Source: Microbacterium sp. (lineage in GTDB: Bacteria; Actinomycetota; Actinomycetes; Actinomycetales; Microbacteriaceae). From it: a stretch of 64,000 nt of DNA. The translations under genes were made by a program, and so were the position numbers. The DNA lies in the NCBI RefSeq assembly GCF_031178445.1, contig NZ_JAPSIY010000005.1, positions 62,001-126,000 on the forward strand, written 5' to 3'. Positions 28,649 through 31,338 of this stretch are shown one piece after another (the first letter of the stretch is position 1; the number at the start of each line of letters is the position of its first letter). Below the pieces are notes generated by a model. That model was not told the origin of the DNA, did not search any database, and saw only the letters and a program-made list of their open reading frames with translations.

Positions 28649-29323
28649 TCAGGCCTGGACGGGCGTTCCGCGCTTGGCCCACATGTCGCGCAGCACGTTC
28701 TCGAACGCCGCAGGCGGCTGCGCCCCTGAAATCCCGTACTGGCCGTCGAGTACGAAGAACGGCACGCCGTTGATGCCGTACGCGCGCGCCTGTGCCTGAT
28801 CTGCGCGCACCGCGTCGAGGTACTCGGCCGACTCCAGCGCCGCGCGCGCCTCGTCCGCGTCCAGCCCCACCTCGACGGCGAGTTCGACCAGGTCGTCGAT
28901 GCGGCCAACGTGCCTGCCCTCGGTGAAGTAGGCCGACATCAGCCGCTCCTCCATCTCGGACTGCAACCCCTTCGCCTTCGCGAAATGCAGCAGCTCGTGG
29001 GCCTTGACGGTGTTCGTGTGCTGCAGCAGGTCGAAGCGGTACTGCAGGCCGGCACCGGCGGCGACGTCCGTGACGTTGGACAGCATCTGCTCGACATGCT
29101 CGCGCGGCATGCCCTTGTGGCCTGCGAGGAAGTCCACCTCGTCGCCGTCGAAGTCGACCGGGGTGTCGGGCGAGAGCTCGAAGGAGTGGAAGGTGATCGT
29201 GACCTGCGGGGCGTCCGCGTCGCCTGCCGTCGCGGCGATTCCCTTCTCCAGATTGCGCTTGCCGATGTAGCACCAGGGGCATGCGATGTCGGACCAGATG
29301 TCGATGGAGATGGGTTCGCTCAC
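28649..29323 (-). CDS. DsbA-family oxidoreductase, FrnE-like
   Basis: A 224-residue thioredoxin-fold protein with the active site CPWC (C15-C18) in WSDIACPWCYIG and the cis-proline loop INGVPFFVLDGQYGISGAQ. It has no signal peptide, so it is cytoplasmic like FrnE rather than periplasmic DsbA. GTG at 29323 gives the standard family N terminus MSEPISIDIWSD; no Shine-Dalgarno is visible, and no clear -10 box sits at leaderless spacing. The role in redox balance is inferred. Confidence 0.9.
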   Translation of the reverse strand: MSEPISIDIWSDIACPWCYIGKRNLEKGIAATAGDADAPQVTITFHSFELSPDTPVDFDGDEVDFLAGHKGMPREHVEQMLSNVTDVAAGAGLQYRFDLLQHTNTVKAHELLHFAKAKGLQSEMEERLMSAYFTEGRHVGRIDDLVELAVEVGLDADEARAALESAEYLDAVRADQAQARAYGINGVPFFVLDGQYGISGAQPPAAFENVLRDMWAKRGTPVQA

Positions 29324-29375: not shown

Positions 29376-29930
29376 ATGCTCTCAGCCGGCGATCCGCTCC
29401 CCTTGCGGCCTGAGCGCGTGCTCATCGCAGGGGTGACAGGATCGGGCAAGACGACACTCGCACGGCGGCTGGCCGCCCGCTGGGGTCTCGTCCATCATGA
29501 GATCGACGCGCTGTTCCACGGACCGGACTGGACGCCGCGTCCTGAGTTCCTCGACGACGTGCGCGCCTTCGCCGCGACCGACCGCTGGATCACCGAATGG
29601 CAGTACACCAGCAAAGGCACCGGCGAGATCCTCCCCGGTCGCGCGGATCTCGTCGTCTGGCTCGACTATCCGTTCCCTCTGGTCCGCCTTCGGCTCCTAC
29701 GGCGCACGGTGAAGCGCCGCCTCCTGCGCACGCGACTGTGGAACGGCAACGTGGAGCCTCCCCTGTGGAGCCGCGAGGCGTGGAGCGGGGACAACGACAT
29801 CCTGCGCTGGCAGAAGGATACGCGCGGGAAGTGGGACGAGCGGATGCCGCAGGTGGAGGCATCCTTCCCGCATCTCACGATCGTCCGGCTGCGTCATCCG
29901 CGCGAGACCGAACGGTGGCTGAATCCGTGA
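29376..29930 (+). CDS. P-loop NTPase/kinase-like protein, tandem copy 1
   Basis: A 184-residue small P-loop protein of the adenylate-kinase-like 'topology modulation' group. Walker A GVTGSGKTT is at about residues 19-27, HHEIDALFHGPDWTPRPEF is the conserved second motif, and VVWLDYPF resembles Walker B. The C-terminal half has an Arg-rich lid, LRLLRRTVKRRLLRTR. The substrate is unknown. The gene is followed by a paralogue; their first 240 nt after about codon 5 differ at only four positions, while the rest has diverged. Confidence 0.8.
   Translation: MLSAGDPLPLRPERVLIAGVTGSGKTTLARRLAARWGLVHHEIDALFHGPDWTPRPEFLDDVRAFAATDRWITEWQYTSKGTGEILPGRADLVVWLDYPFPLVRLRLLRRTVKRRLLRTRLWNGNVEPPLWSREAWSGDNDILRWQKDTRGKWDERMPQVEASFPHLTIVRLRHPRETERWLNP
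29391..29630 (+). repeat. 240-bp near-identical repeat, unit 1
   Basis: Matches 29954-30193 with 4 mismatches by eye. It covers the P-loop half of the first NTPase gene; identity falls sharply right after it. Confidence 0.9.
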
Positions 29931-29938
29931 GGGCACCG

Positions 29939-30502
29939 ATGCTGAACGCCCGCGACCCGCTCCCCTTCCGGCCTGAGCGCGTGCTCATCGCAGGGGTGAC
30001 AGGATCGGGCAAGACGACAATCGCACGGCGGCTGGCCGCCCGCTGGGGTCTCGTCCATCATGAGATCGACGCGCTGTTCCACGGACCGGACTGGACGCCG
30101 CGTCCTGAGTTCCTCGACGACGTGCGCGCCTTCGCCGCGACCGACCGCTGGATCACCGAATGGCAGTACACCAGCAAAGGCACCGACGAGATCATGACAC
30201 CTCGCGCCCAGCTGGCGATCTGGCTCGACTATCCGTGGCCGGTGGTGCGTGCACGACTGCTGCGACGCACGCTCGGCCGCAGCATCTTGCGGACGGCAAT
30301 GTACAACGGCAACGTCGAGAAGCCGCTGTGGCGGCTGGTGGCGACCCGCGATCCGTACGAGAACATCCTCGCGTGGCAGACCAGAACACGCTCCTTCTGG
30401 ACCGAGCGGATGCCGCAGAAACGACAGCAGTTCCCGCACCTGACGATCGTCCGTCTCGCCCACCCGCGTGAGACGGAGCGCTGGCTGCGCCACCTCCCCT
30501 GA
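29939..30502 (+). CDS. P-loop NTPase/kinase-like protein, tandem copy 2
   Basis: A 187-residue paralogue of the preceding gene with the same Walker A GVTGSGKTT and HHEIDALFHGPDW. ATG at 29939 is chosen for GAGGG just upstream; GTG at 29927, overlapping the stop of copy 1, is an in-frame alternative that would add four residues. The C-terminal half differs from copy 1 (for example LRRTLGRSILRTAMYNGNV), though both end in FPHLTIVRL-HPRETERWL. It is probably cotranscribed with copy 1. The function is unknown. Confidence 0.8.
   Translation: MLNARDPLPFRPERVLIAGVTGSGKTTIARRLAARWGLVHHEIDALFHGPDWTPRPEFLDDVRAFAATDRWITEWQYTSKGTDEIMTPRAQLAIWLDYPWPVVRARLLRRTLGRSILRTAMYNGNVEKPLWRLVATRDPYENILAWQTRTRSFWTERMPQKRQQFPHLTIVRLAHPRETERWLRHLP
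29954..30193 (+). repeat. 240-bp near-identical repeat, unit 2
   Basis: Direct repeat of 29391-29630, offset 563 bp. It lies in the second NTPase gene in the same frame. Confidence 0.9.
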
Positions 30503-30534: not shown

Positions 30535-31338
30535 TCAGCGAGACGAGTCCGGCGCGTCCACGGCACCGCCGAATCGGCGGTCGCGCGACAGGTAGATCTG
30601 GATCGCCCGCCAGAGCTCCTCACGGGAGAAGTCCGGCCACAACGTGTCGAGGAACACCATCTCGGCATAGGCCGACTGCCACAGCAGGAAGTTGGAGGTG
30701 CGCTGCTCTCCCGAACTGCGCAGGAACAGATCCACATCGGGCATGTCGGGCACGTACAGGTGGCGCCGGATCTGCTTCTCGGTAATGGCGCCCGGCTTCA
30801 GGCGGCCCGCCTTCACGTCCTCCGCCATCGCGCGCACGGCGTCGACGAGCTCGACCCTGCCGCCGTAGTTCACGCACATCGTCAGCGTGAGCACGTCATT
30901 GCCGCGCGTGAGCTGCTCGGCGTACTGCAGCTCCTTGATCACGGAGCCCCACAGTCGCGGCTTGCGGCCGGCCCAGCGCACGCGCACGCCCCATTCGTTC
31001 AGCTGGTCGCGCCGGCGGTGCAGCACGTCGCGGTTGTACCCCATCAGGAAGCGCACCTCCTCGGGCGAACGGGCCCAGTTCTCGGTCGAGAACGCGTACA
31101 CCGACAGATGCTTCACCCCCGCTTGGATGGCGCCGGCGACCACGTCGAGCAGCACTTCCTCACCGGCCTTGTGCCCTTCGATCCGGTTCAGCCCCCTGCG
31201 GTTCGCCCAGCGGCCGTTGCCGTCCATGACGATCGCCACATGGTTCGGCACGGCGGCGAACGTGGGAGGGTGCACTCCGGTCCAGTCCAGCGGCCGGTAC
31301 GGCACGGCGTCCTTGTGCGTGTACGGTTTCGGGGTCAC
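30535..31338 (-). CDS. uppS: Isoprenyl transferase (cis-prenyl diphosphate synthase)
   Basis: A 267-residue cis-prenyltransferase making the long-chain polyprenyl carrier lipid for cell wall synthesis. The catalytic region [16 protein letters not shown] has D39, and the family motifs [15 protein letters not shown] and [24 protein letters not shown] are intact. GTG at 31338 overlaps the recO stop (GTGA) and has AAGGA upstream. The recO-uppS pair is typical of actinobacteria. Confidence 0.95.

Follow-up and report, generated by a model that had tools for sequence, protein, structure and literature searches.

Domain-limited gene conversion between old bacterial paralogues is known from the release factors RF1 and RF2 (Ishikawa et al. 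2015, PMC4530459), and recurrent concerted evolution of full-length genes has been surveyed in prokaryotes by authors who leave partial cases to later studies (PMC6053082). In mammals, conversion reportedly limits the divergence of the tandem paralogues TLR1 and TLR6 (PMC2077338). The titles and abstracts listed in a literature search contained nothing relevant on gene conversion in Microbacterium at the locus described here. This locus lies in a window of 64,000 nucleotides (i.e., the whole stretch of Microbacterium DNA analyzed) and comprises two adjacent genes, A and B, with nearly identical halves encoding the N terminus (N-halves) and diverged halves encoding the C terminus (C-halves). 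We consider it very probable that this pattern reflects recurrent ectopic gene conversion between the tandem genes, restricted to the N-half, after an old duplication. The pair, which is uncharacterized, adds a well-documented example to a process that is already known. As in RF1 and RF2, one shared functional domain is converted while the other domains remain distinct, and the event is detected by region-wise trees (PMC4530459); RF1 and RF2 occur universally and have been studied thoroughly, whereas A and B are in tandem, are seen only in Microbacterium, and underwent repeated events within one genus. The pair shares with the surveyed prokaryotic families an excess similarity of same-genome paralogues at synonymous and nonsynonymous sites, found repeatedly across species and with synteny, but that survey concerns full-length homogenization (PMC6053082), whereas A and B are homogenized in the N-half only and their C-halves keep separate histories. 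TLR1 and TLR6 are alike in their tandem arrangement and conversion-limited divergence and differ in being eukaryotic receptors.

Genes A and B are both on the plus strand and are separated by 8 nt. The features of the locus are as follows.

28649 to 29317, minus strand: left syntenic neighbor, which we take to be a DsbA/FrnE-like gene from a sequence motif (start codon approximate); it flanks the gene or pair at all Microbacterium loci examined.
29376 to 29930, plus strand: gene A (open reading frame), encoding a 184-aa P-loop kinase-like protein with an A-type (ancestral-like) C-half, which groups with the A-type genes among Microbacterium orthologues (A clade, 100/98).
29394 to 29630, plus strand: probable conversion tract of gene A (minimum extent; codons 7 to 85), covering the P-loop, beta2, putative acceptor-binding helices, and beta3; 234 of 237 nt equal the B copy, and A and B are sisters in the N-half tree (100/100).
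29631 to 29930, plus strand: unconverted C-half of gene A, with beta4, a LID-like region (R110, R114, and NGN at 123 to 125), and beta5; 63.5% DNA identity to B, same-codon level equal to chance, and separate from B in an approximately unbiased (AU) test.
29939 to 30502, plus strand: gene B, encoding a 187-aa paralogue with a B-type C-half, from sequence and translation; the C-half falls in the B clade.
29957 to 30193, plus strand: probable conversion tract of gene B, in register at +563 to the gene A tract.
30194 to 30502, plus strand: unconverted C-half of gene B, with a derived LID carrying S, M, Y, K, and P at five A/B-diagnostic columns, all of the B type.
30535 to 31332, minus strand: right syntenic neighbor, a uppS-like (isoprenyl transferase) gene (start codon approximate), conserved in nearly every locus examined; a recO-like gene is next beyond it.

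Both proteins carry the Walker A motif GVTGSGKTT at residues 19 to 27. The predicted structure of A has an adenylate-kinase-like fold (pLDDT 94), for which the best solved-fold match is 3iij (E 1.9e-6) and the nearest solved folds are hCINAP/AK6, adenylate kinase, and shikimate kinase (TM about 0.5 to 0.6; 14% identity). In this model, the converted half contains beta1 with the P-loop, beta2, the helices at 43 to 66, and beta3, and the unconverted half contains beta4 (WLDYP), a helix with R110 and R114, the NGN motif, and beta5. We classify A and B as P-loop kinase-like proteins with a predicted adenylate-kinase-like fold and putative phosphotransferase activity. Their best curated family match was PRK08118/NF005994, the FlaR-like P-loop "DNA topology modulation protein" (E 1e-12 and 4e-11); membership was rejected, the scores being 48.5 and 43.2 bits versus a cut-off of 215, and by these scores A and B would be distant superfamily kin at most. 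Pfam gave matches below the gathering scores only, PADLOC gave weak matches only, mostly on the P-loop segment, and matches from a sequence search of solved structures were mostly confined to the P-loop.

Only five alignment columns (residues 115, 121, 122, 128, and 138) separate A from B at a level of at least 80%, and all of them are located in the inferred LID region (115 to 138); the N-half has no such column. Across 43 rows of greater distance, 41 of which have titles placing them outside Microbacterium, the commonest residue is that of A at four of the five columns, so that A retains the older LID and the LID of B is derived. The derived LID of B may alter the substrate or partner.

Genes A and B were the sole matches in the window genome. 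An adjacent A-B pair was found in 11 genomes (G000, which is the window genome, G121, G125, G127, G134, G242, G275, G280, G283, G345, and G356), the 10 others also being Microbacterium genomes with the same tandem at the same locus, between the DsbA-like gene and uppS (in G275, the uppS end falls outside the stretch examined). More generally, the interval from the DsbA/FrnE-like gene to uppS contains A only, B only, or both at the Microbacterium loci inspected, and recO usually follows uppS. Among 150 genomes sampled across the family, those outside Microbacterium had single good matches only, and the A/B duplication looks restricted to Microbacterium within that sampling.

In single-gene genomes, e.g., G146 (locus L013), G286 (L065), and G014 (L004), an A-type or a B-type C-half occupies the same syntenic place. 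The A-only and B-only loci imply that one copy was repeatedly lost or that the tandem genes were fused by a deletion between them. Two further genes have unusual structures. A lone A-type gene in G098 (L047, about 1098 to 1550), at the same locus, has lost about 33 codons in frame, including the P-loop, and its reading frame stays open; the gene is either decaying or no longer in need of ATP binding. In G180 (L045, 1182 to 1758), the gene is split across two overlapping frames (residues 12 to 75 and 53 to 185) and is probably a frameshifted copy.

The earlier note on this DNA had reported a 240-bp block repeated at a 563-bp offset with four differences. This description holds within the choice of edge: at an offset of 563, 29394 to 29630 and 29957 to 30193 differ at 3 of 237 nt (98.7% identity), the mismatches being at 29405, 29457, and 29623 and the longest exact run being 165 nt (29458 to 29622). 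All three differences change amino acids (L10F, L28I, and G83D). From 29621 onward, identity per 20 nt is 13/20, 13/20, 16/20, and 12/20, and A and B have no homology 5' of the start codons. The note's further observation, that identical synonymous positions give way abruptly to paralogue-level identity, was borne out by codon counts, for which expected values were derived from codon usage. In the N-half, A and B use the same codon at 71 of 71 informative identical-residue codons (expected, 36.1; z = 9.0); the corresponding C-half count is 29 of 53 (expected, 27.1; z = 0.6). NG86 estimates agree, with a dN of 0.017 and a dS of 0.000 for the N-half and a dN of 0.389 and a dS of 0.967 for the C-half. 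Synonymous sites are homogenized within the tract and not outside it, and the identity of the N-half block is far above chance.

The same signal recurs in other genomes. After the window genome, the N-half same-codon excess is highest in G125 (z = 6.2), followed by G134 (5.9), G283 (4.6), G127 (4.1), G280 (3.4), and G242 (3.0), whereas C-half z values across pairs range from -2.1 to 2.2 (i.e., without excess). Merging near-duplicate genomes reduces the 11 pairs to nine lineages, five of which have an N-half z of at least 3. The N-half synonymous excess is absent or weak in 4 of the 11 pairs (G121, G275, G345, and G356), and conversion is therefore intermittent. Some of these lineages are related, so that the independent events can be counted only as several. 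When labels were shuffled by permuting which B is assigned to which A, N-halves proved more alike within than between genomes (same-codon P = 0.0003; P = 0.002 when the window genome is omitted), and C-halves had no within-genome excess (P = 0.65). The close strains G280 and G283 record one such event: A equals B at nt 27, 32, 36, 66, 72, and 78 in G283, whereas A differs from B at these sites in G280. This patch, which extends over the Walker A codons, is, on this comparison, a conversion younger than the strain split. Synonymous divergence between the two strains is higher in the N-half (0.144 and 0.131) than in the C-half (0.000 and 0.042).

Trees of the two halves disagree, as conversion predicts and as the comparison across related strains proposed in the note was meant to reveal. 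In the C-half tree (codons 86 to 182), an A clade (n = 16) and a B clade (n = 25) are separated by a branch with 100/98 support; this clean separation indicates that the duplication predates these species. In the N-half tree (codons 7 to 84), which has 234 columns and weak support at depth, A and B genes are intermixed across the genus, and A and B of the window genome are sisters. Their nearest rows are the B-only genes of G146 and G078 (weak support). AU tests confirmed that the halves of the same gene pair have significantly different trees: the N-half data reject an A clade (P = 2e-127; lnL difference, 149), and the C-half data reject a clade of A and B from the window genome (P = 1.3e-5; lnL difference, 79). 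The B gene of G127 and the gene of G286 are near A-type genes in the N-half tree (76/27) and of the B type in the C-half tree; this weakly supported placement suggests an A-to-B transfer before the split of G127 and G286. The closest relative compared has about 90% leuA identity to the window genome, and the window event is thus without a near-sister bracket.

Gene conversion confined to the P-loop half, as the note had proposed, accounts for the differing trees and the identical synonymous sites together. The note's other suggestion, selection for identical nucleotide-binding domains with diversified C termini, fares differently in its two parts. Purifying selection on the shared nucleotide-binding domain would make N-halves more conserved than C-halves at the protein level, as they are in all pairs, but selection at that level leaves the 71 of 71 identical codons and the dS of zero unexplained, and in A-A and B-B comparisons between species, the N-halves use the same codon for only about 0.6 of the identical residues. 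We therefore give selection alone practically no chance of being the whole explanation; diversified C termini are compatible with the data and may be the reason why conversion stops where it does. Recent tandem duplication, after which one C-half rapidly diverged or was replaced, likewise predicts similar N-halves and dissimilar C-halves, but each C-half has an A or B orthologue at the corresponding position in other species, indicating an old duplication, and replacement by a foreign orthologue of the expected type would be unparsimonious; this scenario is exceedingly improbable. Independent duplication in each species was rejected on the basis of the half-gene trees and same-codon counts.

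A 29-contig assembly with 165 nt exactly repeated could in principle contain copies that were misjoined or partly duplicated by the assembler. The two copies, however, lie on a single contig with distinguishing bases within the block (three differences) and unique flanks, orthologues of the two C-halves follow one another in the same order in 10 other genomes, and the same pattern occurs in the single-contig assemblies of G125 and G127, making assembly error very unlikely. The alternative closest to conversion is unequal crossing-over between sister chromosomes, producing an array of A, a chimera, and B, followed by deletion to leave the chimera and B, which reaches the same end state via two reciprocal events. 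Adjacent genes with only 8 nt between them lend themselves to such exchange, and the many relatives with A only or B only indicate that copy number does change at the locus. This route nevertheless requires two events versus one for conversion, no three-copy array was present among 50 loci inspected, and short patches bounded on both sides (nt 27 to 78 in G283 and nt 142 to 258 in G125) resemble conversion; we regard it as improbable, if less so than the other alternatives.

Under recurrent conversion, the history of the locus begins with a tandem duplication in an ancestor of part of Microbacterium, giving rise to the kinase-like genes A and B, as shown by the C-half A and B clades at one syntenic locus. 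The LID-containing C-halves then diverged, with B changing where A still resembles distant homologues and presumably with a change in specificity. The N-halves with the P-loop remained close enough in sequence for recombination. Ectopic recombination, presumably by a RecA-type enzyme and pathway, has repeatedly copied N-half sequence between the tandem copies, as the pairs described above show, and a recent conversion in the window genome covered at least 237 nt. The drop in homology near codon 85, selection against converted LIDs, or both would explain why tracts stop at that point.

The A/B pair provides a clean and replicated case of half-gene concerted evolution in bacteria, with a sharp intragenic boundary, a synonymous-site control, 11 genomes, and a patch that distinguishes two close strains. 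Full-length trees of such half-converted paralogues are misleading. Judging by the diagnostic residues, A and B differ in the LID, which makes for a simple functional test. As a tentative reading, to which we give slightly less than even weight, the pair may be a stable mosaic, in which recurrent conversion unifies the nucleotide-binding half and selection purges conversions that reach the LID, so that two substrate or partner specificities would evolve on a shared catalytic half throughout the genus.
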